Source: Thermoflexales bacterium
Lineage (GTDB): Bacteria > Chloroflexota > Anaerolineae > Fen-1058
Direction of reading: 5' to 3'
Assembly: GCA_016931085.1 (NCBI GenBank)
Contig: JAFGFO010000293.1
Coordinates: forward strand, 1-64,000
Length of the DNA stretch: 64,000 nt
The notes under the pieces: generated by a model
What the model was told of the DNA's origin: nothing
Databases searched by the model: none
Seen by the model: the letters and a program-made list of their open reading frames with translations, nothing else
Program-made: the position numbers and the translations under genes
Shown here: one piece after another, positions 4,758 through 59,068 of the stretch
Layout of the letters: each line of letters begins with the position of its first letter
Position numbering within the stretch: the stretch's first letter is position 1

Positions 4758-4813
4758 AAACGTAATGCGTAAAACGTGAACCGCGAAGCGTGAAACGTAA
4801 AACGTGGAACGTA
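4758..4813. repeat. Heptamer array, eight units, between response regulator and kinase
   Basis: Eight consecutive 7-bp units of the AAACGTA / AAACGTG type, with point variants such as AACCGCG, AAGCGTG and GAACGTA and no loss of register. The array fills nearly all of the spacer between the two genes and ends just before the kinase Shine-Dalgarno. Confidence 0.9.
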
Positions 4814-4823
4814 AGAGGATATC

Positions 4824-6146
4824 GTGGACTATAACGGAATATTGGCCGGCTTGTTGCTGGGCTGGTTCAGCCTGGCCTTGGGGTTTTTGCTTTACCGCTG
4901 GGTGCGTGACTGGTGGCGTGCCTGGCGCTACGGTGTGCCAATTGATCACAGTCTGCTATTGGTGGAATACGGCCGCCGGATGACGAGTGCGCCGGACCGG
5001 CAGGCATTGGGCCAAGTGCTGATGTTTGATGTGCCACGCGCCTTGCAGGTGGAGCAAGCCGTGCTGCTGGTGCGGGAAGGACACGAGCTGACGCCAGATG
5101 GAATGAGCCGACTCATTACAACGCCATTTGCGATGGGCCAGCCCATCGCAAATGCGGCCGATTCGACGAGCACGCTCTGCCTGCCACTGAGCCACGCGGC
5201 TGTGCGCTGGGTGGCCTCGGCTGGAGAGGCGCAAAGGGCCGATCATGGCCGCTTGGGAGAATTGATCCGGCAGGGGCGCGACGAACTGAGCTGGACGAGG
5301 GTGTGGGTACCCTTGATGCGGGGAACCGAGCTGCGTGGGCTGTGGCTGCTTGGTGCGCGGCGCGACGAAAGGCTGTATGCGCCTCAAGACCTGCGTTGGT
5401 TGACGGCCCTCAGTCGTGAGGCCGCCGCTGTGTTGGAAACCTCACTGTATGCTGAGCAGGAACGCCAGGCTGCTTCCGAGATGCGAGCGCTCTACCACCA
5501 ATTAGTCGCCGCACGCGAGCTGGAGCGCGGCCGGCTGTCGCGCGAGCTGCACGATGGCCTGCTGCAAGACTTGTGTGCCGTGACCCGCGATTTAAAAGCC
5601 ATGGAAGCGCAGCAGGAAAGCGGCCAGGTGCTTGTTGCTGACCTGGCAGTGCGCTCTGGCGATAGTGTGCAAGCCTTGCGCGCGATTTGCCAGGATTTGC
5701 GCCCGCCTCTTTTGCAACATGACCTGCCCTCGGCTCTCAAGACTCTGGTGCAAGAACTGGACAAGCGTTCCCCCGCGCCCATTCACATCGAGATCACGGT
5801 TGAGGCTCTGCGCCTGGCCGATGACTTGGCGTTGGCCATCTTTCGCATCGCCCAGGAAGCGCTGAATAATGCCATCCGGCATGCCGACGCCTCCGAGATC
5901 GCCCTTCGCCTGACGCAGTACCCTGACCGGCTGCGTTTGAGTGTCAGCGATGACGGGCGAGGCATTCCGGGCGGCGTGGAAGCGGCTCGTTTTGTGGCCC
6001 AGGGGCACTTTGGATTGGCCGGCATGCGTGAGCGCGCGGCGATGATCGGTGGCAGCTTGGACGTGCAGACTGCCGTTGACTATGGCACGGTGGTAATCCT
6101 CGACCTGCCACTTGACATGTCGATGGGTCAAAAGGCCCAAAGATGA
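4824..6146 (+). CDS. HisKA_3-type sensor histidine kinase with GAF-like domain
   Basis: 440 residues from GTG at 4824, preceded by a clear GTAAGAGGAT. A single membrane span lies at about residues 4-24. A GAF-like sensory region follows (about 50-210, ending 'LRWLTALSREAAAVLETSLYAEQE'). The dimerisation/phosphoacceptor motif is 'RELHDGLLQDL', with His243. The HATPase domain has the N-box 'FRIAQEALNNAIRHADA', G1 'DDGRGIPGG' and G2 'GHFGLAGMRERA'. This domain order is typical of NarX/LiaS/DesK-like kinases that pair with NarL-type regulators, and the regulator is immediately upstream. The ligand is unknown. A perfect 30-bp inverted repeat sits inside the GAF-region coding sequence (5125-5154). 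Confidence 0.93.
   Translation: MDYNGILAGLLLGWFSLALGFLLYRWVRDWWRAWRYGVPIDHSLLLVEYGRRMTSAPDRQALGQVLMFDVPRALQVEQAVLLVREGHELTPDGMSRLITTPFAMGQPIANAADSTSTLCLPLSHAAVRWVASAGEAQRADHGRLGELIRQGRDELSWTRVWVPLMRGTELRGLWLLGARRDERLYAPQDLRWLTALSREAAAVLETSLYAEQERQAASEMRALYHQLVAARELERGRLSRELHDGLLQDLCAVTRDLKAMEAQQESGQVLVADLAVRSGDSVQALRAICQDLRPPLLQHDLPSALKTLVQELDKRSPAPIHIEITVEALRLADDLALAIFRIAQEALNNAIRHADASEIALRLTQYPDRLRLSVSDDGRGIPGGVEAARFVAQGHFGLAGMRERAAMIGGSLDVQTAVDYGTVVILDLPLDMSMGQKAQR
5125..5154. repeat. Perfect 30-bp inverted repeat inside kinase coding sequence
   Basis: CATTTGCGATGGGC (5125-5138) and GCCCATCGCAAATG (5141-5154) are exact reverse complements separated by CA. It encodes '(P)FAMGQPIANA' in a variable loop of the GAF region. 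It looks like an in-frame palindromic insertion. Confidence 0.85.
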
Positions 6147-6355: not shown

Positions 6356-9300
6356 ATGACAGGCTCGGAATCCCAAATGACGATCCTAACAGTGGAACAG
6401 GGTAAGACTCACAACTCGGAACCCAGAACTCAAAACTCTCTCGTCGGCTCTGTGATGGTCGTCGGCGGCGGCATTGCCGGCATCCAGGCCAGCCTGGATT
6501 TAGCCGATTCGGGCTTCAAGGTCTACCTGGTCGAGACCAAGTCGGCCATCGGTGGGCACATGGCTCAATTGGACAAGACCTTTCCCACCAACGACTGCGC
6601 CATGTGCACCATTAGCCCCAAGCTGGTGGATGTCGGCCGCCACCACAACATCGAATTGATGACCGACAGCGAGGTGGTCAAGCTCCAGGGCCAGGCGGGA
6701 GATTTTACGATCACCGTGCGCCACAAGCCGCGCTACATCGACGTCAGCAAGTGTACCGGCTGCGGCGAGTGTGCCGATGTTTGCCCGGTGATCATCCCTG
6801 GCCGCTTTGACGAGGGGCTGGTCGTTCAGCGCGCCGCGCACAAGCTTTACCCGCAGGCTGTCCCCAACGCTTACGCGATCGAAAAGCTCGGCATCGCCCC
6901 GTGCCGCGATGCCTGCCCGGCCGGCCAACGCGCCCAGGGCTATATCGCCCTCATCCGCGAAGGCCGCTACGACGATGCCATGCGCGTCATCAAGGAAGAT
7001 AACCCTTTCCCCGGCATCTGCGGCCGCATCTGCAACCACCGCTGCGAAGATGCCTGCAATCGGAATTTGGTCGACGAGCCGCTGTCTATTGCGTCCCTCA
7101 AGCGCTTTGTCACCGACAAGGTGTATGCCAAGCCCTACGAGCCGCCCGAGCCGGCCGAGCGCAGTTACCAGGAGCGGGTAGCGATCATCGGCGCAGGCCC
7201 GTGTGGCTTGACGGCCGCCAAGGATTTGTGCAAGCTGGGTTACGGCGTGACGATATTTGAGGCATTGCCGGTGGCCGGTGGTATGCTGCGCGTGGGCGTG
7301 CCCGAATATCGTTTGCCCACCTGGATTGTCGAGCGCGAGGTGCAAGAGATCGTGGACCTGGGTGTGGACCTGCGGCTCAACAGCCCGGTGGCCGATCTGG
7401 ACAAGTTGTTTGAGCAAGGCTTTAGCGCCGTCTTGATCGCCGTCGGCGCCCACGAGGGCCGCAAGCTGCCCATCCCGGGCGCGGACTTGCCTGAAGTGCT
7501 CATCAATACCCAGTTCCTGCGCGATGTTCGCCTGGCCGACGAGCACCCTGAAATCGAAAATCCAAAATCCAAAATCCAAAATCGCCACGTCCTGGTCTTG
7601 GGCGGCGGCAACGTCGCGGTGGACTGCGCGCGCACGGCCGTCCGCCTGGGCGCGGCCAAGGTCGACATGGCATGCCTGGAGAGCCGCGACAAGATGCCGG
7701 CGCACCGTTACGAGATCGAAGAGGCCGAAGAAGAAGGCGTTACGATGTACCCCAGCCACTCGTTCAAGCGGGTCGTTGATAATGGGGGACACGTGACAGG
7801 CGTAGAGGCGGTCAACGTGACGTTTATGGAGTTTGACAGCGAGGGCCGCTTGAACTTGAGCACTGAGGAAGGCAGCGAGCACGTGCTGCCGTGCGATGTG
7901 GTGATTTTCGCCATCGGCCAGCGAGCCGGCCTGGCTTTTATCCCTGAGAGCGCTGGTGTGGGCGTGACCGGGCGCGCGACGGTGGCGGTGAACCCCAATA
8001 CCTTTGCCGCCACGCGCCCGGGCGTGTTTGCCGCCGGCGACGCGACCAGCGGCACCGCCTTTGTGATCGAGGCGGTGGCGGCCGGGCACAAAGTCGCCGA
8101 GTCCATGCACAAATACCTGCGCGGCGAGGAGTTGGAACCCAAGCCCAAGCCGGAATTGCCGGTCGTTCAGTTGACCAAGGCTGAGGTTAACGAGCGCATC
8201 GCGCGCGGCGAGGCGCGTGTCACGCCGCGTGTGCGCATGCAGGCGCTGGGGGCCGCGCAGCGCGCACGCTCGTTTGACGAGGTCAACCTGGGCTACACTG
8301 ACGAGGAGGCGCAAGCCGAGGCCGCCCGCTGCCTGGCCTGCGGCGTGTGCTCCGAGTGCCTCAGTTGTTGGTACAAGTGCGGCGTGGGCGCGATTAACCA
8401 CGATATGGTCGAGCGCCTGGAGGATGTCCGGGCTGGCGCGGTGATCCTGGCGCCTGGCTATGAGGTCTATAATGCCAAGTTGTCGCAAGAATATGGCATG
8501 GGGCGTTATCCCAACGTGGTGACGGCGCTCCAGTTCGAGCGCTTGTTGTCAGCCTCCGGGCCAACGCTGGGGCACATCAAGCGCCTCTCGGACAACGCTT
8601 CCCCTAAAAAGATCGCTTTCTTGCAGTGCGTCGGCAGCCGTGACCAGAATCACGATTATTGTTCCTCAGTCTGCTGCATGTACGCGGCCAAAGAAGCCAT
8701 CATGGCCATCGAGCACGCCCGGGCCGAGGGCGAGGCTGAGCTGGAATGTCACGTGTTTTTCATGGATATGCGTTCCTTCAGCAAAGGCTACGAGGAATAT
8801 TACCGGCGCGCCGAAAAGAAATATGGCGTCAAGTACCACCGCACGCGCATCTCGGCCCTCAAGGAAAACCCGGCCAATGGGAACCTGATACTGCGTTATA
8901 TTGGGGAGGAGCAGTCCCTGCTTGAAGAAGAATTCGACCTGGTGGTGCTCTCGGTCGGCATGGAGATTTCAGAAGGCGTCAAGCAACTGGGCCGCAGCCT
9001 GGGCATCGAGCTGGACGAGTACGGCTTTTGCCACACGACTTTGTTCGATCCCCTGCAGTCCAGTCGCCCCGGCATCTACGTGGCTGGCCCCTTCCGCGAG
9101 CCAAAGGACATTCCCGAATCAGTGGTGGAGGCCAGCGGCGCGGCGGCAGCCGCTGAGGGCTTGCTGGCCTCGTCACGCGGCAAGCTGGCGCGAGAAATCG
9201 TTTACCCGCCGGAGCGTGACGTGGCGGGTGAAGAGCTGCGCATCGGCGTGTTCGTCTGCCACTGTGGCAGCAACATCGGCGGGTACCTGGACGTGCCGGG

Positions 9301-11077
9301 AGTGGCTGAGTACGCTCAGTCGCTGCCAGGCGTCGCCCACGCCGAGCACAACCTGTACACCTGTTCTCAAGATGCCATCAAGCACATCATTGAAACGGTG
9401 CAGGAGCAGCATCTCAATCGCGTGGTCGTTTCGTCGTGCACGCCCATCACCCACGAGCCGTTGTTTCAGGACGCCATTCGCCAGGCCGGACTCAATCCTT
9501 ATCTGTTCGAGATGGCCAACATCCGCAACCAGTGCTCGTGGGTTCACTCCAGTGACCGTGAGGGTGCAACGGTCAAGGCCAGGGATTTGGTGCGCATGGC
9601 TGTGGGGCGCGCGGCCGAACTGCTGCCGCTGCACACCAGCCAGGTGCCGGTGCAGCACGCGGCGCTGGTCGTCGGCGGCGGAGTGGCCGGCATGACGGCT
9701 GCACTCGCGCTGGCTGGCCAGGGCTTCCCGGTGCATCTGGTCGAACGCTCAGAGCGATTGGGTGGCAATTTATGGAATGTATACTTCCTGGCTGATACTG
9801 AGCACAGAGCGTCAGCCGACCCGCAATCCGCAACCCTTCGACTGCGCTCAGGGCAGGCCCAAAATCCAAAATCCAATGATCCTCAGGCCTATTTGCACGA
9901 GTTGATTGATAAGGTCGGTTCACATCCACTGATCAGCGTTTACCTCGAGACCGAGCTGGTCGAAACGGGCGGCTTTCAGGGCAATTTTGAGAGCCAGTTG
10001 CGGCGCACGGGGGGGTGTGGGGAGCCAATCACGACCATCCGGCATGGTGCGACGATCGTCGCCACCGGCGGGCGCGAGTATCGCGGCCCAGAGTACGGGC
10101 TGGGCCAAGACCCGCGCGTGATGACGCAACTGGATTTCGAGGCGCTGCTGGCTGGTGTTTCAGATACGCAATACGCAATACGCAATACGCAATCTGTCAT
10201 CATGATCCAATGTATCGGCCCGGCCGAAAAGTATTGTGCGCGCACCTGCTGCACCATCGCGCTCAAGAACGCGCTCAAGCTCAAGGAACTGAATCCTGGC
10301 GCTCAGGTGGTGATCCTGTACAAAGACATGCGCACCTACGGTTTTAAGGAACGCTTGTACACTGAGGCGAGGCGGCAGGGGGTGTTGTTTGTCCGTTACG
10401 ACGACGAGCACAAGCCGGAAGTAGCGGGCTTGCAACCTGAAACCTCTAACCTGCCACCTCTAACCATTAAAGTGTGGGAGCCATCTTTGAGGCAGGAATT
10501 GACGCTTGTTGCTGACTTGCTGGTGCTCGCCAGTCCCATCGTGCCGGCCGAGGGTGCTCGCGAGTTGGGCAAGGTGCTCAAGGTGTCGGCTGACCAGGAT
10601 GGCTTTTTCTTGGAAGCGCACGTCAAGCTGCGCCCGGTGGACTTTAGCAGCGACGGGATTTTTATGGCCGGCCTGGCGCACTATCCTAAATTCCTGGATG
10701 AGAGTATAATACAAGCACAGGCGGCCGCCGCGCGGGCAGCCATCATTCTCTCCAAAGATTTCGTCACCAGCAGCGCGCGCGTGGCCGTCATCGATCCGGC
10801 CAAGTGTGTGGGCTGCCTGACGTGCGTTCGCATTTGCCCATACGCTGTGCCCAAGGTCAAGCTGGATTTTTCAGGCGTGGGGGGTATCACGGGTGCCGCG
10901 TTTGTCGAGCCGGCGGCCTGCCACGGCTGTGGCTCGTGTGTGGCCGAATGCCCGGCCAAGGCCATTCAACTGATGCACTATACCGACGTGCAGATGTTGG
11001 CCAAGGTAGACGCGTTGTTCGCATGCTCGCCCCAGCCGGCTCTCGTGCCGGTGGAAGCGATACACGACCAACGATGA
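6356..11077 (+). CDS. Giant HdrA-GltD-HdrA flavo-iron-sulfur fusion, copy 1
   Basis: 1573 residues, about twice the length of ordinary HdrA. In order: HdrA FAD site (VVGGGIAGIQASLDLADSG, then GGHMAQLDKTFPTNDCAMC) at about 30-90; 4Fe-4S ferredoxin motif CTGCGECADVCPV near 133; a GltD/NfnB-like insert with N-terminal cluster Cys (CRDACPAGQ, CGRICNHRCEDAC) at 180-250 and a second dinucleotide fold (IIGAGPCGLTAA) to about 640; CLACGVCSECLSC near 660; the rest of the first HdrA; then a second HdrA-like unit (VCHCGSNIGGYLDVP near 967, VVGGGVAGMTAALAL near 1105); and two C-terminal ferredoxin motifs (CVGCLTCVRICPY, CHGCGSCVAECPAKA). HdrA proteins pass and may bifurcate electrons via FAD; the GltD part suggests NAD(P)H exchange. 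No HdrBC or hydrogenase is nearby. The MvhD partner follows. Start: ATG after GGGGG. Five short tandem arrays lie inside. Confidence 0.9.
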   Translation: MTGSESQMTILTVEQGKTHNSEPRTQNSLVGSVMVVGGGIAGIQASLDLADSGFKVYLVETKSAIGGHMAQLDKTFPTNDCAMCTISPKLVDVGRHHNIELMTDSEVVKLQGQAGDFTITVRHKPRYIDVSKCTGCGECADVCPVIIPGRFDEGLVVQRAAHKLYPQAVPNAYAIEKLGIAPCRDACPAGQRAQGYIALIREGRYDDAMRVIKEDNPFPGICGRICNHRCEDACNRNLVDEPLSIASLKRFVTDKVYAKPYEPPEPAERSYQERVAIIGAGPCGLTAAKDLCKLGYGVTIFEALPVAGGMLRVGVPEYRLPTWIVEREVQEIVDLGVDLRLNSPVADLDKLFEQGFSAVLIAVGAHEGRKLPIPGADLPEVLINTQFLRDVRLADEHPEIENPKSKIQNRHVLVLGGGNVAVDCARTAVRLGAAKVDMACLESRDKMPAHRYEIEEAEEEGVTMYPSHSFKRVVDNGGHVTGVEAVNVTFMEFDSEGRLNLSTEEGSEHVLPCDVVIFAIGQRAGLAFIPESAGVGVTGRATVAVNPNTFAATRPGVFAAGDATSGTAFVIEAVAAGHKVAESMHKYLRGEELEPKPKPELPVVQLTKAEVNERIARGEARVTPRVRMQALGAAQRARSFDEVNLGYTDEEAQAEAARCLACGVCSECLSCWYKCGVGAINHDMVERLEDVRAGAVILAPGYEVYNAKLSQEYGMGRYPNVVTALQFERLLSASGPTLGHIKRLSDNASPKKIAFLQCVGSRDQNHDYCSSVCCMYAAKEAIMAIEHARAEGEAELECHVFFMDMRSFSKGYEEYYRRAEKKYGVKYHRTRISALKENPANGNLILRYIGEEQSLLEEEFDLVVLSVGMEISEGVKQLGRSLGIELDEYGFCHTTLFDPLQSSRPGIYVAGPFREPKDIPESVVEASGAAAAAEGLLASSRGKLAREIVYPPERDVAGEELRIGVFVCHCGSNIGGYLDVPGVAEYAQSLPGVAHAEHNLYTCSQDAIKHIIETVQEQHLNRVVVSSCTPITHEPLFQDAIRQAGLNPYLFEMANIRNQCSWVHSSDREGATVKARDLVRMAVGRAAELLPLHTSQVPVQHAALVVGGGVAGMTAALALAGQGFPVHLVERSERLGGNLWNVYFLADTEHRASADPQSATLRLRSGQAQNPKSNDPQAYLHELIDKVGSHPLISVYLETELVETGGFQGNFESQLRRTGGCGEPITTIRHGATIVATGGREYRGPEYGLGQDPRVMTQLDFEALLAGVSDTQYAIRNTQSVIMIQCIGPAEKYCARTCCTIALKNALKLKELNPGAQVVILYKDMRTYGFKERLYTEARRQGVLFVRYDDEHKPEVAGLQPETSNLPPLTIKVWEPSLRQELTLVADLLVLASPIVPAEGARELGKVLKVSADQDGFFLEAHVKLRPVDFSSDGIFMAGLAHYPKFLDESIIQAQAAAARAAIILSKDFVTSSARVAVIDPAKCVGCLTCVRICPYAVPKVKLDFSGVGGITGAAFVEPAACHGCGSCVAECPAKAIQLMHYTDVQMLAKVDALFACSPQPALVPVEAIHDQR
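6407..6441. repeat. Heptamer array inside HdrA1, N-terminus
   Basis: Five 7-bp units: ACTCACA, ACTCGGA, ACCCAGA, ACTCAAA and ACTCTCT. It encodes 'HNSEPRTQNSL' just before the FAD fold. HdrA2 has a five-unit array of related but different sequence at the same place (15155-15189). Confidence 0.9.
7551..7585. repeat. Heptamer array inside HdrA1, absent from HdrA2
   Basis: Five units, AAATCGA, AAATCCA (three times) and AAATCGC. It encodes 'EIENPKSKIQNRH' in a surface loop just before the third dinucleotide-fold strand (VLVLGGGNVAVDCA). HdrA2 has no array here and is nine residues shorter. Confidence 0.9.
9814..9879. repeat. Heptamer array split by a 24-bp palindrome-like element, inside HdrA1
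   Basis: CCGCAAT and CCGCAAC, then a 24-bp element (9835-9858, containing CCTTCGACTGCGCTCAGGG), then CCAAAAT twice. The element reads 'LRLRSGQAQ', a peptide signature of dispersed palindromic repeats known from other bacterial genomes. HdrA2 has a simple array at this place (18530-18564). Confidence 0.85.
10164..10194. repeat. Heptamer array inside HdrA1
   Basis: ATACGCA repeated four times, encoding 'DTQYAIRNTQS' in a loop. HdrA2 has a CCTGAAA/ACCTTAA-type array in the same loop (18863-18893). Confidence 0.9.
10431..10465. repeat. Heptamer array inside HdrA1
   Basis: Five units, TGCAACC, TGAAACC, TCTAACC, TGCCACC and TCTAACC. It encodes 'LQPETSNLPPLT'. HdrA2 carries a longer array at the same loop (19109-19186). 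Confidence 0.88.
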
Positions 11078-46527: not shown

Positions 46528-46539
46528 GGTGACACTTGG

Positions 46540-49086: not shown

Positions 49087-51596
49087 TATCTTATCTGGAT
49101 GGAGCTCAGCATCAGTCGATTACCCACTGCTTGGCCATCTTTCAAGACCAGGTGATGTTCCAGCGTATCCAAGCGGTACACGCCTGTTTGTACCTGGTAA
49201 ATCCCTGGCTCGAGGTCCCCGGACAGCTCGAAGCGGTGCATTTGCACAATGGTATCGCCAGCCTGCCACGTTTCGACCGGCACGCCTAGCCCATCGCCCA
49301 CGGCTACGACATGCCCATCGGCGGCCACCATGTGTGCCATAATGGAAATCGGCTGGCTTGGCACGCCGGTTACACGCCAGGCTGTGGCGAGCGCCAGCCG
49401 ATCCCCAGCTCTGGCGTTTGTTTGCCCTTCGACCAAGCGAAACCCTACAAAGGCCAATGGGCCGCTCATCGTAACCGGCACAGAAAGTGGCTGGTCCACT
49501 TCTGTATAGGCGGTCTCGACCAGGCCGGTGGGCAGCGCCGGTCGTGCGACGTGGATGATTTCAAAACGGGACTTGTTCCCGGCTGTGCGTGCGGCGAAGA
49601 CCACGCGCGTGTTGGGATACCAGCGGGTATAACCCAGGCTCGGCTTGACGTCGGCCAGGGTTAGTGCCGCGTCTTGAGCGTCCAGGCGAGCAAATTCCAG
49701 CTTTCGCTCGGGTGAACTCTCTACGTACCAACCGGGCGTATCGTTGGCCGGGTACCACCAGCTCTGCGAGCAGTCAAAGTAGACGCGCCGTAAATCGCCG
49801 CGTCCAAAGCCCTCGACGATCTCTTCCGTTTCGAGCGGCGCGGCGGGCGGAGTGCATTGGGCTACCCATTCGCCCGGCTCGGCTCGAGGCACATCGTAGA
49901 CAAACAAGGCGTGGCCTATACGCACTGTGGGTGTCATGGCGCGGAAAAAGGCGTAGGTATTGATGTCTGGTGTGTATACGCCCTGGAGTGATGTGGCGCC
50001 GATGGCATAGATGCCAGGGGCAGGGTTGAAGCGGGAGGGGAATTGGTCCGGCGCGGCGTGGGTAGGCGGCAGCGGCTCGTATTCCAGGCCGTACACCGCC
50101 GGGTCGAGAAATACCAGGGAACTCAGCTTGATTCGCTTCACGCCGTGCTGGTCCAGGTAGCTCTTGATCGCTGTGAACGATTGCCCCCAGTCGAGATTCG
50201 AATCGACCAGGAACCGGTAACCGTTGGCCGGGCCGCCGGCCAGCTCGTTGAAATAGGCCAGGTGGTGAGGGAAGGTGCCAAGCGTGTTGGCAGCGTACCA
50301 GAAGAGTAAAACGTAAAACGTGAAACGTAATACGTAATACGCAATACGCGATTTGCGATTTGAAATTTGAAATTTGAAATTTGAAATTTGCATCCCCGCG
50401 AACACAAACACGAACGGCAGCACGGGCAGCAAGTGGCGGTAGCCGAGATTGACGGTGCTCAACATAGCCGCCGCAAAGTAGGTGATGGGAAAAGCGAGCA
50501 AGACGAGCGTTGACTTGCCAAGTTCTCCCAACTTGTCCAGCGATTTGATTCTCCATAGCTCGATGGCGGCTGTAGCAAGAAGCAAGACGGAAATCCATGC
50601 CAGTATCAAAGTGGGCAGCGGCGTTTTGAGTGCAAAGGCGATTGGGAAATAGTACCACCAGCCCATCTGCGAGTTGTGTCCCCACAGAAAAGTGCTGTGC
50701 CCGGCGGATTGGTGTGCGAATAAACGCGCCAAGGGGATCAGGTGACTGGCGGCTGGAAGGGGGATTGGGAGGGTGGGCAACTGCCGCAGCTCGAAGCCAT
50801 AGATGGCCCACACGACGAGTGATGCGATCGCGGCGATTGCCACGAACGCGGCGATCGCCTGCCCCAGCCTACCCCAGGCCCCCTGCCAGCGATTGGGCTG
50901 CCGCCGCGCCGAGGCCACGCAGATGACGACCCCCATGACCGGCACGGCGATCAGCGCTGACATCTTGCTCGCCAACGCGGCGCCCAACGCGACAGCCGTG
51001 AGCGCCAGTCTCGCACGCGATGGCCGTCGAAGCCATCGCCACAAGCCGTACCACGTTACAAAGAGAAACAGCGTCACGCCGATGTCCGTCGTCGCCAACT
51101 GGCCGTGGGCCACGATGTTGGGATCGAGCGCGCACAACCCCAGTGCGATGAGCCCGGCGTTTGGCCCTGAACGTTTCCAATCGGAGGCCCAACGATACAC
51201 GAAGGCTGCCAATACCAACGTCAGCCACATCACCGGCACACGTGAAGCGAACGCTATACGGGCCGGGGCGGGATAATGGCCTAGCAATTGGCGCATCACC
51301 ATGATCAGGTCGGCTCTGTCCCAGGCATCCTGGGCCGAGCGTGGATCGCCCATGTCTGGCAGGAACAACAGCGGCCAACTGGCAATCGCTTTGATGAGCA
51401 GGGGGTGCTCTTCTACGAGCCGCGCGTCACCGGTTTTGAGGTACGAGTAGCCGCTGACGATGTGCAAGGGCTCGTCTGTGGTTAGAGAGCTCAGGCTTGA
51501 CTCGAGTGCTGTTTGAGCGAACAAGAGCCACAATAGAACGATGGCAACAGGCCATTGCCAGTTCAATTGTAAAGGGACGTTGCGCTGCTCTTTCAT
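49086..51596 (-). CDS. GT39-like (GT-C) membrane glycosyltransferase 5
   Basis: 836 residues from ATG 51596 (MKEQRNVPLQ); the open frame reaches a TTG at 51635 without a ribosome site. First-loop 'LTTDEPLHIVSGYSYLKTGDARL', then 'HPLLIKAIASWPLL'. Shared motifs: 'NLGYRHLLPVLPFVFVFAG', 'TFPHHLAYFNELAGGPANGY', 'SNLDWGQSFTAIKSYL' and the terminal 'GIYQVQTGVYRLDTLEHHLV'. A twelve-unit array at the shared loop encodes 'ISNFKFQISNRKSRIAYYVL'. It is very close in layout to genes 4 and 6, so tandem duplication is likely. Confidence 0.85.
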   Translation of the reverse strand: MKEQRNVPLQLNWQWPVAIVLLWLLFAQTALESSLSSLTTDEPLHIVSGYSYLKTGDARLVEEHPLLIKAIASWPLLFLPDMGDPRSAQDAWDRADLIMVMRQLLGHYPAPARIAFASRVPVMWLTLVLAAFVYRWASDWKRSGPNAGLIALGLCALDPNIVAHGQLATTDIGVTLFLFVTWYGLWRWLRRPSRARLALTAVALGAALASKMSALIAVPVMGVVICVASARRQPNRWQGAWGRLGQAIAAFVAIAAIASLVVWAIYGFELRQLPTLPIPLPAASHLIPLARLFAHQSAGHSTFLWGHNSQMGWWYYFPIAFALKTPLPTLILAWISVLLLATAAIELWRIKSLDKLGELGKSTLVLLAFPITYFAAAMLSTVNLGYRHLLPVLPFVFVFAGMQISNFKFQISNRKSRIAYYVLRFTFYVLLFWYAANTLGTFPHHLAYFNELAGGPANGYRFLVDSNLDWGQSFTAIKSYLDQHGVKRIKLSSLVFLDPAVYGLEYEPLPPTHAAPDQFPSRFNPAPGIYAIGATSLQGVYTPDINTYAFFRAMTPTVRIGHALFVYDVPRAEPGEWVAQCTPPAAPLETEEIVEGFGRGDLRRVYFDCSQSWWYPANDTPGWYVESSPERKLEFARLDAQDAALTLADVKPSLGYTRWYPNTRVVFAARTAGNKSRFEIIHVARPALPTGLVETAYTEVDQPLSVPVTMSGPLAFVGFRLVEGQTNARAGDRLALATAWRVTGVPSQPISIMAHMVAADGHVVAVGDGLGVPVETWQAGDTIVQMHRFELSGDLEPGIYQVQTGVYRLDTLEHHLVLKDGQAVGNRLMLSSIQIR
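50306..50389. repeat. Twelve-unit heptamer array with stepwise unit change, inside GT39 gene 5
   Basis: In unbroken register the units go from GTAAAAC through GTGAAAC, GTAATAC, GCAATAC and GCGATTT to GAAATTT. Most neighbours differ by no more than about three bases while the ends share little. Confidence 0.95.
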
Positions 51597-51643
51597 TTTG
51601 TCCGCCAGGATACCACGAACTTGTGGAACGGTCAATGTACAGA

Positions 51644-54124
51644 CTACTCGACGACGTGTAACGTGGCGACAGGCACCCGACCGTCGGCAATGGGTTGGTT
51701 ATCCAGGCTGGCCGGCTCGCGTTGGCCGGAAACGATTGAGTATAGTCCCAGGTGAATCGTGTACTCGCCGGCTGGCGTGTGGGGTGGAATCTCGAAAGTA
51801 TGCACCTGGGCGATAATATCACCCACTTGCCATGTCTCGGCCGGCACAGCCAGGCCGTCACCGGTAGCAACCAGGTTATCGGGCTTGCCCAGGTGGGCCA
51901 GAATCGAGAGCAAGGGCTGGCCGGCGTCTTCCACGCGCCAATAAGTGACCATGCGTGCTTTTTGCCCAGCTTGTACCGTGCTGGAATCGAGCATGTACCC
52001 CAACAGGCTGGCCGGCCCAGCCCGCGCTGCGCCTGGGGGGCGGCTCAACATGGCCAGGCGCGCTTTGAGCGCTTGAAGTGAGTCCAGGCGATGTACGCTG
52101 TAAGCTTCTTGTTCGCCTCTGTAGCCCCTTTCGCGAAAGACCTCGGCCGTCTCGAGCAGGAAAGGCGCTGCTTGGGATGCTCGCCCATCGCGCGAAGGTA
52201 CGACGTACCAGCCGGGCGAGGCACCTCCACCTGGATAAATCCATCCATGCTGGCAGTCATAAAACACCTTGCGCAGGTCGCCGCGCCCAAAAGCCTGCTC
52301 TACGTCCTCGCCGTCCATCGGCCCGTCTACGGTGTGGCATACGGCTACCCATTTTTCCAACTGGGGGCGTTCTTCTACCCGGTAGACGAACAGCGTGTGA
52401 CCGACGCGCGCCACGGGTTGTTGGCGGCGGAATGTGTCGAAGGTATCCGGATCATCCAGCCGCAGCCCTTGCAAGTTGGAGGCGCCAATCACGTACACGC
52501 CGGGTGCGGGTTGGATGCGGTGAAAGTCGTACTCGGTTGGTGCCTGGTAGGGGCCAGGTAAGGGACGGGACTGAATGCCATAGTACTCAGGCAGACTGCC
52601 GGCAAAGATCGCCAGGTAAGGCTCGCGGATGTCGTTGGCGTCGAGGTAACGTTTCAGCCGCTTGACATCCTGTCCCCAGTCTAGGTTTGAGTCTACCAGG
52701 GCGCGGTACCCGCCATCCGGCCCTCCCACCAGCTCGTTAAAATAGGCCAGATGGTAGGGGTAGATGAGAATTGCACCGATCGAGAGCCAGGCGAGTAAGG
52801 CGTAAAACGTCCCTCGGCAAGCTCGGGATGACATAAAACGTAAAACGTCCCTCGGCAAGCTCGGGATGATATAAAACGTAAAACTTGAAACTTGAAACCT
52901 GAAAGCTCTTACTTGCCCTGCGCCGATCATGACCACGAACGGCACGATTGGCAGGATGTGGCGGTAGCCGACGTTGATCGAGGCACGCAGGCTGGCCAGG
53001 AAATACAGGGCCGGCAAAAGAATCCAAACGGGCGCGATGCTTGGCGTATGGTCCCTAGTCTCCGGTCTCCAATTCTTGGTCCCCAGCCCTCGCTTGCCGC
53101 TTTCTAATATCCAATATCCTATACCCCACGCTAGCAAGATTAGCGTAGGCAGTGGGGTCTTGAGCACGAGCGCGACGATGAAATAATACCACCAACCGCG
53201 CGGCGAGATTTGCCCCAACAGGAAGGAGAGATGCCCGGCTTCGTTGTGGTCATCTACGGCCAATAACCCGCGCCAGAAAGACGGAATCAAGCTCCAGTCG
53301 AGCGACAGCGACAGACGGGTGGACTCGATTTTCAGCGGCCCGGTTTCAAAGCGGTAGACGAGGCTGAGCACGAGGGCAGCGGATATAGCCATAATGACTA
53401 GCGCCCCAAGCACGGATGGCCATGCCCTTCGGCGTTCCCACGCCCCTTTGCTCCAGGCCAGCCAGCCGGCAGCCAGGACGATGATCGGTAGGAGGATGAT
53501 GGCTGAGAATTTGGATGCCAGCGCCAGCCCTAGGCTTGCGCCAACGGCCAGGGCGCGCTGCCAGTCGGGCTTGGCCATCCAGCGATCGAGTGCGTAGGCC
53601 GCCAGCAGGATAAAAACAGTGACGACCATATCTGTGGTGATCAGCACACCGTGCGCCAGCAAATTGGGGTCGAATGTGCATAAGCATAACGCGCCTAACG
53701 CCGGCCACTTGCCCAGGCGTCGGTTCGCCCATCGAAACAGCACGGCGCACATGCACAGCGCCAACATCAACACGGGCAGACGCGCCAGGAAAACGATGCG
53801 CTCGGCCGGGCGGTTCTCGTCCCAGAGCAGATGCCGGGCCACGCTCATGCGATCTGTCTCGGCCCAGCCGGGCAAATCGGCCGGCGAGGGTAGGCCTGGC
53901 TCTAGTTGTAGAAACAGACCGCTCAGCGCGTGAATCAAGGGTGGATGGCCGCGCTGCAGGCGAAAATCGCCGGTGCGCCAGTAGGCCTGAGCACGGGCGA
54001 TGTGAGCTGGCTCGTCGACGACGGGTGATTGCTCGGACAGGTTGCCGGCCGCTTGCAACCAAAAAGCCAGCAGGAGCAGCACAACCAGTGTGCTATGAAG
54101 CAATGGCGGGGGCGCTCGCTTCAT
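51644..54124 (-). CDS. GT39-like (GT-C) membrane glycosyltransferase 6
   Basis: 826 residues. First-loop 'PVVDEPAHIARAQAYWRTGDFRL', then 'HPPLIHALSGLFL'. Late motifs: 'NVGYRHILPIVPFVVMIGAG', 'IYPYHLAYFNELVGGPDGGY', 'SNLDWGQDVKRLKRYL' and the terminal 'GEYTIHLGLYSIVSGQREPA'. At the shared loop a composite array with two 24-bp elements (52802-52905) makes an unusual peptide 'IIPSLPRDVLRFMSSRACRG'. A second array (53048-53122) lies in an upstream loop. ATGA overlap with the following DUF2142-like gene's stop. Role as for the other GT39-like genes. Confidence 0.85.
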   Translation of the reverse strand: MKRAPPPLLHSTLVVLLLLAFWLQAAGNLSEQSPVVDEPAHIARAQAYWRTGDFRLQRGHPPLIHALSGLFLQLEPGLPSPADLPGWAETDRMSVARHLLWDENRPAERIVFLARLPVLMLALCMCAVLFRWANRRLGKWPALGALCLCTFDPNLLAHGVLITTDMVVTVFILLAAYALDRWMAKPDWQRALAVGASLGLALASKFSAIILLPIIVLAAGWLAWSKGAWERRRAWPSVLGALVIMAISAALVLSLVYRFETGPLKIESTRLSLSLDWSLIPSFWRGLLAVDDHNEAGHLSFLLGQISPRGWWYYFIVALVLKTPLPTLILLAWGIGYWILESGKRGLGTKNWRPETRDHTPSIAPVWILLPALYFLASLRASINVGYRHILPIVPFVVMIGAGQVRAFRFQVSSFTFYIIPSLPRDVLRFMSSRACRGTFYALLAWLSIGAILIYPYHLAYFNELVGGPDGGYRALVDSNLDWGQDVKRLKRYLDANDIREPYLAIFAGSLPEYYGIQSRPLPGPYQAPTEYDFHRIQPAPGVYVIGASNLQGLRLDDPDTFDTFRRQQPVARVGHTLFVYRVEERPQLEKWVAVCHTVDGPMDGEDVEQAFGRGDLRKVFYDCQHGWIYPGGGASPGWYVVPSRDGRASQAAPFLLETAEVFRERGYRGEQEAYSVHRLDSLQALKARLAMLSRPPGAARAGPASLLGYMLDSSTVQAGQKARMVTYWRVEDAGQPLLSILAHLGKPDNLVATGDGLAVPAETWQVGDIIAQVHTFEIPPHTPAGEYTIHLGLYSIVSGQREPASLDNQPIADGRVPVATLHVVE
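52802..52905. repeat. Heptamer array with two 24-bp elements, inside GT39 gene 6
   Basis: GTAAAAC units carry the 24-bp element (CCCTCGGCAA...) twice (52811-52834, 52849-52872), each time between GT and AAAAC, then TTGAAAC and CTGAAAG units. Confidence 0.92.
53048..53122. repeat. Degenerate heptamer arrays inside GT39 gene 6
   Basis: GTCCCTA, GTCTCCG, GTCTCCA, ATTCTTG and GTCCCCA units, then TAATATC, CAATATC and CTATACC. They encode 'YWILESGKRGLGTKNWRPET' on the minus strand. Confidence 0.75.
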
Positions 54125-56037
54125 GGCGTGACTACCTCAAGCACAGCCAACTCGGCCACGTCGCCGCTGAACCAGGCGTTCGTCCCCTCCACAGCCAGGA
54201 GTGGCGTGATCTCGTCACCCACGCCAAGTTGTAGCGATACCTCTGTCCCGCTTGGGAGGGTGCTGTCAGCGCGGACCGTGTGCTCGTCGACTACGATTTG
54301 GCCGGGCAGCCACAGCGTGGTGGGATAAAGGCTGCTGCCCAGTGTAAAGTGAGCCTGGCCGCCGGATTGCCCGTCTGTTGTTAGCAGGCGGATGAGCAAG
54401 CGGTGGTCTTGATTGAGTAGTGCGTGTGCGCGCCAGTACGTGCTCACTCGTATGGCTGCCCCGGGTGTGAGCTGCTGCGGCGTAAGGCGATACCCTACGA
54501 GTTCTAGGCTCTCTCCGAAGCGAGTTGATGCGGGCGTTGCATCGGCCGGCAGGGATGAAACGAGCGGGTATGCAAAGGCCGGCCGCACGAACGTAAAGGG
54601 GGCGGCCAGGGACAGTGCGCACAGGCCCACTACCAGGCCGTAAGCTGGCCAAGTCGTGCGCTTTGTCGACAGCCCGGCCGCCAGCAGCAAGCTGATCGCT
54701 GCGATAGCCGGGAAAAGCAGCCGCCCCTGCGCGGCGGGCGTGGTCTGCATATAGCGGACGACGCCGGCGATGATGATGCCTAGCCAGGCCAGGAGGAGCA
54801 GAAAATTGTGATTTGCGATTTGCGACATGCCATTTCTTAATGGCACACGATTTGCTATTTGCGATTTGCCGTTTGACATGCATCGCCCCAGGGCAATCAC
54901 TGTAATGGCACTCAAGATTACCCACAGCCACGGCACAGCCTGGCCGTAAGTGAACTCGATCCAATAGGTGCGAAAGAGGGCCGGGATTTCGGGTACCAGT
55001 TGCCACACCGCTGGCGTGGGCTGGCGCACGCCGATGTCAGACAGCCACACTTGCCAGGCCAGTGGGTCGCCGTACAGCGCGATGTTGCGAACGTACCACC
55101 AACCGGCGACGAGGAAGGCGGTGGAGAAGGTCAAAAGGGCGAGATAGAACGTGAAACGTAAAACGTCCCTCGACAGGTTCCCCCTTCCCTCTGGTCGGGG
55201 ACTGCGCGGGATGATATGAAACGTGGAATGTGCTGGACTGTGCCACCAGATGACAAGAAACACCAGCCCGACAAAGGGGATAAGCGCGACCGCGCTGAGC
55301 TTGGACAGCAGCCCCAAGCCCAACATCACCCCTAGCACCACTGCCCATCTCCCTTGTTTTTTTCGTTCGCCGACTTTCTCGCTTGAGCACGGATCATTAA
55401 CAATTAATAATTGACAATTAACAATTAACAATTTTAGGCCCGCCCACACCGTCCACGTGGCCGTGGCAGCCATCAGACTGTCGTTGTTGACCGAGTTGCT
55501 GAGCAGGACGAATTGGGGGGTAAAAGCGGCGATGCCAGCGGCGGCAGTAGCCAGTGCCGGCCGCTCGGGCGCCACCTGGCGGGCGATGGCATACACCCCC
55601 AGCACTGTCAGCAAGCCAAAGGCCAATGACACCAGCCTGGCTATGTGGATGGCCAGTACCGCCCCCTGGTAGGGCCAGCTTTCGAGCCGGGTGTGGATGA
55701 AAACGTTGGGCCTGTCGCTGGTCGAGCCTGGCGTGATGGAGGGGTGAGAGGCGTTGAAACGCATAAAGCCGGGAAAGTCGCCGCGGTCGAAAGGGGCAAC
55801 AGCCAATGCCGCTATAGCGTAGTACAGCGGCGGCTGGCCTGCCTCGCGCAAGAACACGGGCTTTTCGCCGCTGAAATGAGGTAGCCCTTGGCCACTGGCA
55901 AGGTGATTGGCGAAGGCAAAATGCCATATCTCGTCCGGAGGCTCGAACAACGGAATCGTCACGTTGTAGACTAGCCCGATCAGGACAAAGATGGCCAAAA
56001 GGGCCACTATCGGCAAGGGTGATGGCGATTTCTTCAC
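54121..56037 (-). CDS. GT-C-type membrane glycosyltransferase, DUF2142-like, second copy
   Basis: 638 residues from GTG 56037 (GTGA overlap with the GT2 stop). First-loop '[25 protein letters not shown]' closely resembles the gene at 22312. About ten spans run to ~475, then one beta domain ('[20 protein letters not shown]', '[20 protein letters not shown]'). Three repeat insertions are present: 55398-55432 coding '[13 protein letters not shown]'; a nested composite at 55144-55229; and 54818-54884 coding '[20 protein letters not shown]'. It lies between GT39 gene 6 and the dolichol-phosphate-mannose-synthase-like GT2, which could supply its lipid-linked donor. Confidence 0.8.
54818..54884. repeat. 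Heptamer array with 18-bp palindrome, inside GT-C gene
   Basis: GTGATTT, GCGATTT and GCGACAT, then the 18-bp element GCCATTTCTTAATGGCAC (54839-54856), then ACGATTT, GCTATTT, GCGATTT and GCCGTTT. Same element as at 43885. Confidence 0.92.
55144..55229. repeat. Heptamer array with a 24-bp element that itself carries a 27-bp net insertion
   Basis: GTGAAAC and GTAAAAC, then GT, then element ends CCCTCGACA (55167-55175) and GGGATGATAT (55208-55217) separated by foreign G/C-rich sequence, then GAAAC. Total 51 bp instead of 24, so the frame is kept. Confidence 0.85.
55398..55432. repeat. Heptamer array inside GT-C gene
   Basis: TAACAAT, TAATAAT, TGACAAT and TAACAAT twice, in strict register. Confidence 0.9.
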
Positions 56038-56942: not shown

Positions 56943-58115
56943 TTATTTTCGAAACAGGCTCCTTTGGTAGACCTCGACCGTGCGTGCGGCGATGGCGTCC
57001 CAGGTGAATTGCCGGGCAAGCTCTGCTGCGCCGCTTTCCAACCGGGCGCGTAGGGTAGGGGAGTCTAGCACTTGTGCCAGCCCGGCTGCCAGCGCTGTAG
57101 GGTCTCCAGGCGGAAGGAGCAGTACATTTTCGCCCTCGCGCAGTTCTGGCGATGGAGTATGTGACCGTGTGGTGACGATCGCGCGCCCGTGCGCCAAGGC
57201 CGCCATCAGCGTCCCGTGCCGCAGGCTGGCTCCTTCCAGATAGGGCAGGGCCACGACGTCGCACGCGTAGAACGCTGCGCTCACTTCTTGAGGCATTATA
57301 TACCTGGTGAAGGCCATCCGCTCGTCCACGCCAAGCGCTTGCGCCAGTAATTCAAGCTGTATAGCGTAGGCGGCATTGGTATCGGCGTCGCTCGAGCCTG
57401 TCTTACCGCCGATGAACAGCGCTTTTGCCGGCCGGCCTTGCTTGATCAGCTCCGCCAATGCCTGGACCAGGATTTCACCTCCCTTGAGCGGATGTAAGAA
57501 GCCAAAATAACCGATCACTTCCTCGCCTGGCTTGACGCCCCATCGCGCTCGCCATTCGTCGCGCTCGTAACCCGCCGGCAGCACGGGTGCGATGTTGCTC
57601 CCAATCGGGATCCGCTCCAAACTTGAAACTTGAAACTTGAAACTTGAAACTTGATGCTCGTCCTCATAGTTGGTGACAATCACGCCGTCGCTCTGGCGGG
57701 CCAACTCCCACACGACCCACCTGCGCAGTGAGCCAGCCTTGGGGAAAAGATAGGGCACGTTCAGGTCGTGAAAGGTGGTGACGAGTGGCGGTAAGCCAAG
57801 CCAACGCCGCGCGATAGGCAGGAAGTTGATCGCCGGATGCATATGATAGACGGCGGCCTGGTATTGCACGTTCAGCACATCCAGGCCGAGTTCCTTTGTC
57901 ACCTTTCGGATGGCCTGCCAACACCCCCATCCCCAATTGTTGATGCAGCGGTGAACTTGATTTGATTTCTGACTTCTGACTTCTGACTTCTGACTCGTCG
58001 TGATCACGTGTGCTTCGTGCCCCAGCAGCGTCAAGGCCTGCGCCAACTCCTGCGTAAAGTCGCCTACCCCGCCTTGCATAGGGGGATATTCACCCGTGAT
58101 CAGTCCAATTCTCAT
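56943..58115 (-). CDS. GT4-family glycosyltransferase
   Basis: 390 residues. N-terminal 'MRIGLITGEYPPMQGGVGDFTQELAQAL' is the acceptor-side Rossmann start of GT4 enzymes. The C-terminal donor half has 'VIGYFGFLHPLKGGEILVQAL', 'VVALPYLEGASLRHGTLMAAL' and 'NVLLLPPGDPTALAAGL', the EX7E-type region being slightly altered. It is cytosolic, using a nucleotide-sugar donor. Two heptamer arrays are in frame: 57622-57656 (coding 'HQVSSFKFQVSSLE') and 57967-57994 (coding 'SQKSEVRSQKSN'), both in loops. Overlaps the next GT2 gene by ATGA. Confidence 0.9.
   Translation of the reverse strand: MRIGLITGEYPPMQGGVGDFTQELAQALTLLGHEAHVITTSQKSEVRSQKSNQVHRCINNWGWGCWQAIRKVTKELGLDVLNVQYQAAVYHMHPAINFLPIARRWLGLPPLVTTFHDLNVPYLFPKAGSLRRWVVWELARQSDGVIVTNYEDEHQVSSFKFQVSSLERIPIGSNIAPVLPAGYERDEWRARWGVKPGEEVIGYFGFLHPLKGGEILVQALAELIKQGRPAKALFIGGKTGSSDADTNAAYAIQLELLAQALGVDERMAFTRYIMPQEVSAAFYACDVVALPYLEGASLRHGTLMAALAHGRAIVTTRSHTPSPELREGENVLLLPPGDPTALAAGLAQVLDSPTLRARLESGAAELARQFTWDAIAARTVEVYQRSLFRK
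57622..57656. repeat. Heptamer array inside GT4 gene
   Basis: CTTGAAA four times and CTTGATG, in a loop just before the conserved 'IPIGSNIAPV'. Confidence 0.92.
57967..57994. repeat. Heptamer array inside GT4 gene
   Basis: TTCTGAC repeated four times without a change. Confidence 0.95.
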
Positions 58116-59068
58116 CGCCAGTCCAATCCTGAACGCAGCAGGTTCAAATAAGCCCTTACTCGCTCTCGGCGCAGCTCACGCTTGTGCCCGATTGCCCATT
58201 TGGCGGCTTCTAACCCAACTTGCCAGGCGTACAGTGCCAATAAGTAGATGCGCAGCACGCCGGCTGCCAGCTTCCCGTGATGTTTGCGAAAGTAGCGCAC
58301 CTTGCTGGTCTGAAAGTACACGTGTCGTTGTGGCGCGACTTGTTCGCTGCTTTTGCCTTCGTGATGGATCACTCGCGCTTCGGGTAAGTAGACGATTTGC
58401 CAGCCGGCATCTTTGATGCGTTTGCACCAATCCAATTCCTCAGAGTACATAAAAAAGCCTTCGTCGAGCACCCCTACTTGTTCGACAACCTCCCGGCGCA
58501 CCAACAATGCAGCGCCCATTAACCAATCGACCTCGGCCGCCTGGTCATCCGGCAAGTCAAGCGCGTAATAGGCCTTGAGCAGGCCGGGTGGAGCCAGCGA
58601 CTGAAGCCAGGTGCTTTCAAACAGTGCCGTGCACAGGCTGGGAAAACGCCGCCGCGAGGATTGAATCGACCCGTCAGGGTAGATCAATTGTGGTCCCAAG
58701 GCGCCGATTTGAGGATGTGCGTCTGCGTACGTCACTAGCGTGGCCAGGGCATCGTCTAGCACTTGTGTGTCTGGATTGAGCAGCATCACGTAACGTCCGC
58801 GTGCTATGGCCAATCCATCGTTGTTGCCGCCGGTGAAGCCTCGATTTGTGCCATTGGCGACCAGCCGGACCTGCGGGAACTCGCTGCGCACCATTTCGGC
58901 GCTGCCATCGCTCGAAGCGTTGTCGACGACAATGACCTCCAACTTGAAACTTGAAACTTGAAACTTGAAAATTGACTGAACGCATCGCCGCAGCAGATCG
59001 CGCACGTTCCAACTGACAATGACGACCGAGAGCTCGATCGACACATCGACAGGCGAATCGACCATCAC
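58112..59068 (-). CDS. GT2 glycosyltransferase (rhamnosyltransferase-like)
   Basis: 318 residues. GT-A motifs: 'LSVVIVSWNVRDLLRRCVQSI', 'VIVVDNASSDGSAEMV', 'NRGFTGGNNDGLAIARG', the DxD-type 'YVMLLNPDTQVLDDAL', and the acceptor motif 'FFMYSEELDWCKRIKDAGW'. This wording is usual for WbbL/RfbN-type rhamnosyltransferases. A heptamer array (58943-58977) replaces the variable loop before the second beta strand, giving 'FKFQVSSFKLEV'. It overlaps the polyprenyl synthetase gene (ATGA). Likely adds one sugar to a lipid-linked or peptidic glycan in the cytosol. Confidence 0.9.
   Translation of the reverse strand: MMVDSPVDVSIELSVVIVSWNVRDLLRRCVQSIFKFQVSSFKLEVIVVDNASSDGSAEMVRSEFPQVRLVANGTNRGFTGGNNDGLAIARGRYVMLLNPDTQVLDDALATLVTYADAHPQIGALGPQLIYPDGSIQSSRRRFPSLCTALFESTWLQSLAPPGLLKAYYALDLPDDQAAEVDWLMGAALLVRREVVEQVGVLDEGFFMYSEELDWCKRIKDAGWQIVYLPEARVIHHEGKSSEQVAPQRHVYFQTSKVRYFRKHHGKLAAGVLRIYLLALYAWQVGLEAAKWAIGHKRELRRERVRAYLNLLRSGLDWR
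58943..58977. repeat. Heptamer array inside GT2 gene
   Basis: CTTGAAA four times, then ATTGACT. It forms part of the loop joining 'RCVQSI' and 'VIVVDNASSDGS'. Confidence 0.92.

Follow-up and report, generated by a model that had tools for sequence, protein, structure and literature searches.

Heptanucleotide tandem arrays of many unit sequences at recurrent sites within genes of Chloroflexota

Introduction

The window analysed here, a 64-kb stretch of DNA whose contig has its best matches in Chloroflexota/Anaerolineae, carries tandem arrays that share a period of seven nucleotides while their units differ, and raises the question of what process could hold a length constant as sequence changes. 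The original prediction was that at least 26 such arrays are present, mostly in frame within genes, and that a mechanism measuring length had produced them. Their likeness to STRR, the particular heptamer families of heterocystous cyanobacterial genomes, is fair as to period; judged by the Chloroflexota/Anaerolineae matches and the many units, rather than by STRR unit sequences, the arrays are not members of those families.

Among long SSRs of 5-11 nt in prokaryotes, an excess of heptanucleotides was described by Mrazek and colleagues 2007 (as reported in PMC4679880 and PMC4692102), and units of a multiple of three are reported in the same accounts to be likeliest in coding regions. The reason for the bacterial heptamer preference is unsettled; the cause suggested in print is the length of DNA contacting the polymerase, approximately 7 nt (PMC4679880, PMC4692102).

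Results

Arrays were scored by lag matches (+1/-1.5) with cut-offs of at least 9 (loose) and at least 12 (strict). At the loose cut-off the window held 27 segments at lag 7, in line with the number predicted, compared with nine at lag 6, eight at lag 12, four at lag 9 and one to three at each of the remaining lags from 4 to 13; at the strict cut-off lag 7 retained 16 and lag 12 two, and lags 4-6, 8-11 and 13 were empty. No period-7 array scoring 12 or more appeared in ten first-order Markov sequences as long as the window. Runs of at least 18 consecutive matches, sought at lags 2-30, occurred eight times at lag 7, three times at lag 14 and at no other lag. In having head-to-tail 7-nt units beyond chance expectation the window arrays match heptanucleotide SSRs, and a handful of those scoring 9-12 may be due to chance, judging by the counts at neighbouring lags. 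Perfect arrays of at least four units lie at 10164-10193, 23765-23796, 50358-50390 and 57619-57654, while the majority are imperfect. All units named in the original prediction were found, and 13 canonical units were represented among the 16 strong arrays (score at least 12). The predicted location in genes was also recovered, as 26 of the 27 segments (15 of the 16 strong arrays) fall within ORFs and the sole exception, at 4761-4812, lies between two genes (Table 1).

Table 1. Heptamer arrays of the window, with the genes and recurrent sites in which they lie
Position	Strand	Gene	Array	Basis
4761..4812	+	intergenic	GTAAAAC/GTGAAAC, 7.4 units	lag-7 score
6407..6438	+	6356-11077, flavin/iron-sulphur	weak (score 10), codons 18-28	
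7551..7583	+	6356-11077	AAATCCA, residues 399-410	
9859..9876	+	6356-11077	short, CCAAAAT, residues 1168-1174	
10164..10193	+	6356-11077	perfect, ATACGCA, residues 1270-1280	
15171..15189	+	15119-19762, paralogue of 6356-11077	weak (score 9.5), AACTCAA, codons 18-24; position matches 6407-6438	
17617..17641	+	15119-19762	site at query residue 852	
18530..18561	+	15119-19762	ACTCGGA; site corresponds to 9859-9876	
18872..18893	+	15119-19762	CTTAAAC/CTGAAAC; site of 10164-10193, other units	
23744..23796	-	22312-24585, PMT_2-type membrane	TTGAAAA	
37830..37859	-	37377-39815	TTGATAA	
38594..38645	-	37377-39815	AAACCTG; site common to five paralogues	
40951..41018	-	39812-42331	GTGAAAC; five-paralogue site	
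47757..47867	-	46540-49086	two adjacent arrays (GTGACAC/GTGAAAC; AACCTGA); five-paralogue site	
48056..48104	-	46540-49086	AATTAAC	
50306..50390	-	49086-51635	12 units; five-paralogue site	
52872..52907	-	51644-54124	AAACTTG/AAACCTG; five-paralogue site	
54806..54875	-	54121-56037	two TTGCGAT-type arrays flanking hairpin GCCATTTCTTAATGGC	
55396..55433	-	54121-56037	AATTAAC; has TAA-to-CAA copy like 48056	
57619..57654	-	56943-58115, GT4	perfect, AAACTTG, residues 154-166 (site 2)	
57963..57995	-	56943-58115, GT4	TGACTTC, residues 41-51 (site 1)	
58941..58975	-	58112-59068, GT2	AACTTGA, residues 32-43	

Paralogues and orthologues bear arrays at matching positions, with units that differ. In the flavin/iron-sulphur family the protein end that carries 6407..6438 also has arrays in loci L013, L017 and L027, the site of 7551..7583 is common to L014, L016 and L017 with differing units, and that of 10164..10193 accounts for 12 of the 43 array rows, more than any other site of the family. 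At one in-frame site of the G084 family three species each have a unit type of their own, and in three further species no array is apparent by eye. Unit sequence can also change within an array: the unit of 50306..50390 passes, with its phase kept, from GTAAAAC to GCAATAC, then to GCGATTT and lastly to GAAATTT, and in 48056..48104 the copies due to give an in-frame TAA have CAA instead. Stop triplets, counted in any frame, are avoided on the sense strand: of the 26 arrays in window genes, 6 contain one in sense and 21 in antisense, and over the loci of a wider set of 208 the corresponding numbers are 19 and 57 of 81 arrays.

The genome-wide autocorrelation check was run on samples of relatives in place of the window's whole genome, and the genus of G011 is represented by one genome only. 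The excess is not confined to the window: when a single stretch per genome was sampled from 59 relatives, period 7 accounted for 47 arrays and periods 6, 8 and 9 for seven each. Period 7 dominates both in long ORFs of Chloroflexota loci (61 arrays, against 9, 15 and 9 of periods 6, 8 and 9) and outside ORFs (36, against 2, 7 and 9). Since it far exceeds the frame-neutral periods 6 and 9 within long ORFs, selection for frame is unable to create the peak. The predicted width of unit variety holds here too: the 136 arrays of the 208 whose locus carried a genome label comprise 91 distinct canonical units. The description of the period as strict has to be relaxed, given the 15 period-8 arrays in long ORFs and the period-8 arrays that relatives carry at the same protein sites. 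In the flanks of one gene in 16 G119-family genomes (150 nt upstream and 330 nt downstream), four (L247, L248, L249 and L260) had period-7 arrays scoring at least 10, with different units in each, and L250 had a period-8 array only. Phages yielded no near match to window positions 47700-48200.

Close relatives were compared at the GT4 gene using the best 30 loci out of 211 genomes with a GT4 match. L280 is longer than L281 by exactly 21 nt at site 2, with near-identical flanks, and L278 is longer than L276 by 21 nt at site 1; both pairs are approximately 85-87% identical. These differences are unpolarised, such that gain and loss are undistinguished. L267 and L268 are of equal length at site 2, with 21 differences in 42 nt, and 17 of the differences are accounted for by three positions of the seven-nt unit. 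Net-zero conversion would give this pattern, as would the loss of one array and the insertion of a different one in its place. Other length differences are not multiples of seven residues (four at site 1 of L271/L287, two in L270/L276 and one in L284/L289), and a 14-residue difference at site 2 of L271/L287 is not a heptamer stretch.

Similarity between units drops smoothly with distance (lag 7 > 14 > 21 > 28 > 35 > 42), and does so alike in ORFs (n=30, length at least 42) and outside them (n=29), which offers no evidence that copying within genes proceeds by 21 nt at a time. Because these arrays were picked by lag 7, their lag-7 identity is inflated, and detection by lag 21 is only a partial remedy; arrays in ORFs detected by lag 21 alone had identities of.832,.825 and.837 at lags 7, 14 and 21, and 17 of 21 were heptamer-related. 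Growth showed no polarity along the gene (19 positive, 16 negative and 9 ties; n=44). Hairpin formation by the arrays themselves was discarded for the window, where none of the 16 arrays had an inverted arm scoring at least 12; in the 59-genome sample such arms accompanied 10 of 48 arrays (8 of 240 random stretches), and in most of another set of relatives 9 of 30 arrays (2 of 150), mostly outside ORFs. None of the polymerase or repair genes examined accounts for which genomes are array-rich, a label that, like array-poor, is our own and is based on short stretches. Missing mismatch repair was rejected on finding MutS_I in all 18 array-poor genomes and in 12 of the 16 array-rich ones (p=0.039, from four misses), and a Y-family polymerase on finding IMS in 12 of the 16 rich and 11 of the 18 poor genomes.

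Discussion

We consider it probable that the arrays arise by local copying of the slippage type with a step of approximately 7 nt, less often 8, followed by selection for frame, lack of stops and tolerance. The displaced or re-annealed step would be about one 7-nt unit and sometimes 8, its length perhaps set by polymerase contact, and the arrays surviving in genes would be those in frame, lacking an in-frame stop and placed where the protein tolerates them. Array sites may generally be surface loops, as suggested by an AF2 model of the GT4 protein alone in which site 1 is a low-confidence loop and site 2 mostly coil. A transient misalignment by one unit could spread unit variants along an array with net length unchanged, and such spreading would allow in-frame turnover of units. 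Ordinary replication slippage favouring approximately 7 nt, as put forward by Mrazek and others (reported in PMC4679880 and PMC4692102), is compatible with these results. The period tallies, the recurrence of sites, the two 21-nt differences and the avoidance of stops favour the slippage account; the loop differences that are not multiples of seven residues, and the failure of the polymerase and repair genes to mark array-rich genomes, weigh against it. As to a mechanism that measures length, the step length does hold as sequence changes; measurement itself is an interpretation, and no dedicated insertion machine was identified.

New arrays would on this slippage account be born locally and not transferred from elsewhere in the genome. 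Dispersal, in which a small mobile palindromic element or ectopic templated repair carries units to new sites where they are then extended, appears unlikely by comparison. Its trace would be genome-specific unit 'dialects', and pairs of arrays do share a unit more often within genomes (21 of 485) than between them (54 of 8,678), an excess that purely local birth does not predict. Composites of the form AAACGT - CCCTCGRCAAGCTCGGGATGA - AAACGT heptamers are present at 41019, 52811, 52849 and, with two mismatches in CCCTCGRCAAGCTCGGGATGA, 6303, and a second hairpin, GCCATTTCTTAATGGC, sits between two arrays at 54829; we count the flanking of REP-like window copies by AAACGT heptamers against slippage. 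The number of distinct units nevertheless argues against dispersal, and close pairs differ at the site itself only, with no element ends seen. By array score, only two of the three REP-like window copies located in this comparison have an array no more than 25 nt away, and of eight matches of two REP-like cores outside the window, two being second copies of one place, one was near an array. The window arrays are not themselves discrete palindromes of the REP or small dispersed element kind, and the REP-like core that adjoins some arrays is separate.

Retention of arrays as contingency loci, with genes switched off and on by unit gain and loss, is improbable. The mechanism is known from neuO of E. 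coli K1, described as having an AAGACTC repeat of 3 to 53 copies that is on, giving translation at full length, when the copies number a multiple of three (PMC13001214). The window likewise has in-frame heptamer arrays within coding sequence, including near-perfect arrays of about five units early in glycosyltransferase genes (58941-58975 and 57963-57995) and that at 57619-57654; neuO, however, is a single contingency gene acting as a switch, whereas the window arrays occupy several kinds of gene and internal sites, and many are short and degenerate. It is more doubtful still that selection acts on a heptapeptide repeat and that the DNA period is secondary, even though 86 of 120 GT4 homologues have, close to site 2, a run of 12 residues that fits the translation of some heptamer, and the loop there is 15 or 16 residues long in 78 of 92 proteins matched by the search expression. 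A 7-residue repeat requires a DNA period of 21 nt only, yet the period is 7 nt in ORFs, as DNA identity, and outside genes too, and the peptides vary widely among homologues. We attach next to no weight to an assembly or sequencing artefact: many source sequences are metagenome assemblies, but the pattern is repeated in independent assemblies and large contigs (G084 C1, 3.99 Mb; G249 C1, 5.4 Mb), and the arrays occupy open frames and recurrent sites.

Compared with prokaryotic SSRs as published, seven is again the commonest unit length; the differences are that period 7 exceeds periods 6 and 9 even within long ORFs and that sites recur with new units. The cyanobacterium Calothrix, described as having heptanucleotide repeats of three units (PMC4692102), resembles the window in its tandem heptamer arrays with several units per genome, but not in the number of units or the in-gene position of strong arrays within a single 64-kb stretch. 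Within the same phylum, the 22 satellites of Chloroflexus aurantiacus are also dispersed heptamer arrays and are thought by their authors to have been transposed (PMC6749651); they are described as one heptamer, (GATAGRA)n, in contrast to the many units and in-gene sites here. The TAACTGA repeats of Beggiatoaceae and some cyanobacteria are similarly dispersed, in two to six copies and particularly upstream of start codons, and form a one-unit system in which related heptamers are reported to be seldom repeated (PMC4679880). What is new here is the dominance of period 7 within genes and the turnover of units at fixed sites.

Conclusions

That arrays of differing unit recur at fixed places in Chloroflexota proteins makes the old heptamer question testable within genes. 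Where a gene has many recurrent array sites, its orthologous pairs, constrained in frame, allow step length, net-zero unit conversion and the gain or loss of whole units to be read off directly. Our results suggest that heptad-like peptides in Chloroflexota proteins (of the QISNLKS, RMANGEW and FQVSGFR types) can be traces of DNA repeats, not protein motifs. More tentatively, Anaerolineae may possess, or suffer from, a copying process whose step is fixed at approximately 7 nt and which rewrites units in phase while array length stays constant, giving loops wholly new in-frame heptapeptides between close species. If true, this process would generate diversity in the loops of conserved proteins while being blind to sequence and bound to length.

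Heptamer arrays in the window and their host genes

Tandem Repeats Finder returned many arrays of 7-bp period in the window. When each match at a given lag was scored +1 and each mismatch -1.5, 27 lag-7 arrays scored at least 9 and 16 scored at least 12, no array in the window reached 12 at lags 4-6 or 8-11, and the longest perfect runs were confined to lags 7 and 14. These counts bear out the 7-bp array family of the original prediction, and also its claim that most arrays lie within genes, as 26 of the 27 are inside ORFs. Mean GC was 0.34 in the 16 strong arrays versus 0.605 in the whole window. An 18-bp imperfect tandem repeat, CCCCACACCTACGCCTAC, is also present within an ORF.

Seven window proteins were compared with Pfam; three matched PMT/PMT_2, and the rest are a flavin/iron-sulphur protein, GT4, GT2 and a histidine kinase. 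The best matches of the flavin/iron-sulphur protein (1573 residues) are Anaerolineae and other Chloroflexota MAGs, while the six named organisms among 120 listed relatives of the GT4 protein are all Anaerolineae or Chloroflexota. The contig encoding this GT4 protein is given a length of 64,930 nt. A run of membrane genes includes five paralogues (35-45% identical), of which the one tested matched PMT/PMT_2.

Locations of arrays, repeats and host genes (L, loci from relatives; G, relatives' genomes)
Feature	Source	Position	Detail
Flavin/iron-sulphur gene	window	6356-11077	
Six array places	6356-11077 family	query residues about 3-28, 395-410, 852, 1145-1174, 1263-1281, 1356-1371	
Membrane-gene run	window	37377-54124	
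GT4 gene	window	56943-58115 (-)	
GT4 site 1 array	window	57963-57995	residues 41-51
GT4 site 2 array	window	57619-57654	residues 154-166
G084-family gene arrays	one per orthologue		GTCGGCT/GTCTGTG; GTCACTC/GTAACTC; ATTCCTA/ATTCGTA
Stepwise array	window	50306-50390	
Arrays with CAA copies	window	48056-48104, 55396-55433	
Period-8 array	L109	2685-2834	
REP-like core CCCTCGRCAAGCTCGGGATGA	window	6303-6323 (2 mismatches), 41019-41039, 52811-52831, 52849-52869	
Hairpin GCCATTTCTTAATGGC	window	43885-43900, 54829-54844	
Arrays with reverse-complement arm, outside long ORFs	L180	1635-1684, 10438-10517, 15027-15114	
Arrays with reverse-complement arm, outside long ORFs	L197	4374-4462	
18-bp imperfect repeat CCCCACACCTACGCCTAC	window	36876-36945	within ORF 35290-37380

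AAACGT heptamers adjoin, by eye, every copy of the REP-like core, three of whose four copies are within genes. Both copies of the hairpin are within genes and the second is flanked by two heptamer arrays. In L180 and L197 the reverse-complement arm implies a hairpin stem made of heptamers.

Recurrent sites with changing units

Arrays recur at the same places in related proteins. In the flavin/iron-sulphur family they occur in 13 of 28 aligned proteins (two from the window). As we read the table, six places account for 40 of the 43 array rows; these are mostly low-occupancy columns, and the units, of 7 or 8 bp, vary. The five PMT-type window paralogues share one array site. Period-8 arrays were seen in L109 and in L004, L011, L013 and L017, the latter four at protein sites bearing period-7 arrays in other species.

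For GT4, we counted 12-residue windows fitting some stop-free heptamer translation at 8 or more of 12 residues: 915 of 46,314 in 120 proteins versus 58 of 46,314 once shuffled. Such windows occurred near residues 33-60, around site 1, in 63 of the 120 proteins and near residues 145-170, around site 2, in 86, with 23 windows elsewhere. At the DNA level, for the window and the best 30 of the 211 genomes that matched GT4, 6 of 31 scored at least 9 at lag 7 at each site versus 8 of 748 same-gene control windows (Fisher p=6e-6 per site, for related proteins whose counts are not independent events); at lag 8 the sites gave 1/31 and 0/31. In an AF2 model (mean pLDDT 89.4, 62 sequences), residues 41-51 form a low-confidence loop joining two strands and residues 154-165 a helix end and coil preceding a strand.

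Close pairs differ at these sites. L280, which carries an AATTGAG array at site 2, differs there from L281 (85-87% identical) by exactly 21 nt, and a 21-nt difference separates L276 from L278 (86%) at site 1; some other GT4 pairs differ in length by a residue count not divisible by seven. L267 and L268 (84-91%) are equal in length at site 2, with 21 of 42 nt changed, three unit positions accounting for 17 of these changes, and 43 and 52 differences in the 300-column flanks. In the G084-family gene, three of six aligned orthologues (a seventh, partial match was left out) have arrays at one place, where none was seen by eye in the other three.

Spread and origin of the period

The excess extends beyond the window, as the original prediction anticipated. 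In every fifth genome of the set (59 stretches of up to 20 kb from contig 1, with contig 2 used for G124), 47 period-7 arrays were found in 13 stretches, versus seven each for periods 6, 8 and 9 (14, 13 and 15 for 12, 18 and 21). Non-Chloroflexota (56 loci, 922 kb) gave 17, with 4, 3 and 6 for periods 6, 8 and 9. Together these counts indicate a general period-7 bias, raised in part of this class. Of the 298 genomes in the class, 65 contain a three-unit AAACNTG pattern. Reversed as a control, the pattern is still a heptamer array and was counted in 15 genomes, as we read the rows. Density is uneven among sampled stretches: those of G007 (60 kb), G227 (40 kb), G124 (9 kb) and G068 (6 kb) held no period-7 arrays, although AAACNTG is frequent in the genomes of G124 and G068. 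A MutS_I match was missing from 4 of 16 genomes that we labelled array-rich and 0 of 18 array-poor, labels resting on short stretches; absence from the four (G164, G254, G013 and G011) is uncertain as genome completeness is not given.

Selection on proteins probably acts on the arrays. Among 208 distinct arrays (81 in long ORFs, 67 outside, 60 ambiguous), stop triplets occur on the sense strand in 19 of the 81 versus 57 antisense, and in 6 versus 21 of 26 in-gene window arrays; arrays in ORFs thus avoid sense-strand stops. Two window arrays have CAA in the copies whose phase would give TAA, once per 21 nt. Such selection cannot produce the period-7 peak, because period 7 loses the frame that 6 and 9 keep. 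In Chloroflexota loci, some picked for array-rich genomes and with identical arrays counted once, periods 7, 8, 6 and 9 numbered 61, 15, 9 and 9 in long ORFs (969 kb; 14 each for 12 and 18), 36, 7, 2 and 9 in stretches without long ORFs (276 kb), and 36, 13, 2 and 3 in ambiguous stretches (188 kb). We infer that the peak reflects a mutational preference.

In the parts consulted of a prokaryotic genome survey (PMC4060949), repeats of longer oligomers are described as generally normal and sometimes weakly over-represented, and seven of the eight columns in Table 3 (unit lengths 1-7) give the top score to 7-mers of at least three copies. Among the titles and abstracts searched, which took in a minority of subscription papers, none treated Chloroflexota heptamer arrays at recurrent in-gene sites with unit turnover, a silence that is weak evidence of novelty.

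Similarity between units declines evenly with distance inside ORFs and outside, and in one window array the unit changes stepwise with phase held, which we read as copying by one-unit slippage. The seven-nucleotide step agrees with the polymerase-contact idea of Mrazek 2007, as reported in the portions seen of PMC4679880 and PMC4692102. One-unit slippage is probably the source of the arrays, and transient misalignment would be a likely route by which unit variants spread without loss of frame.
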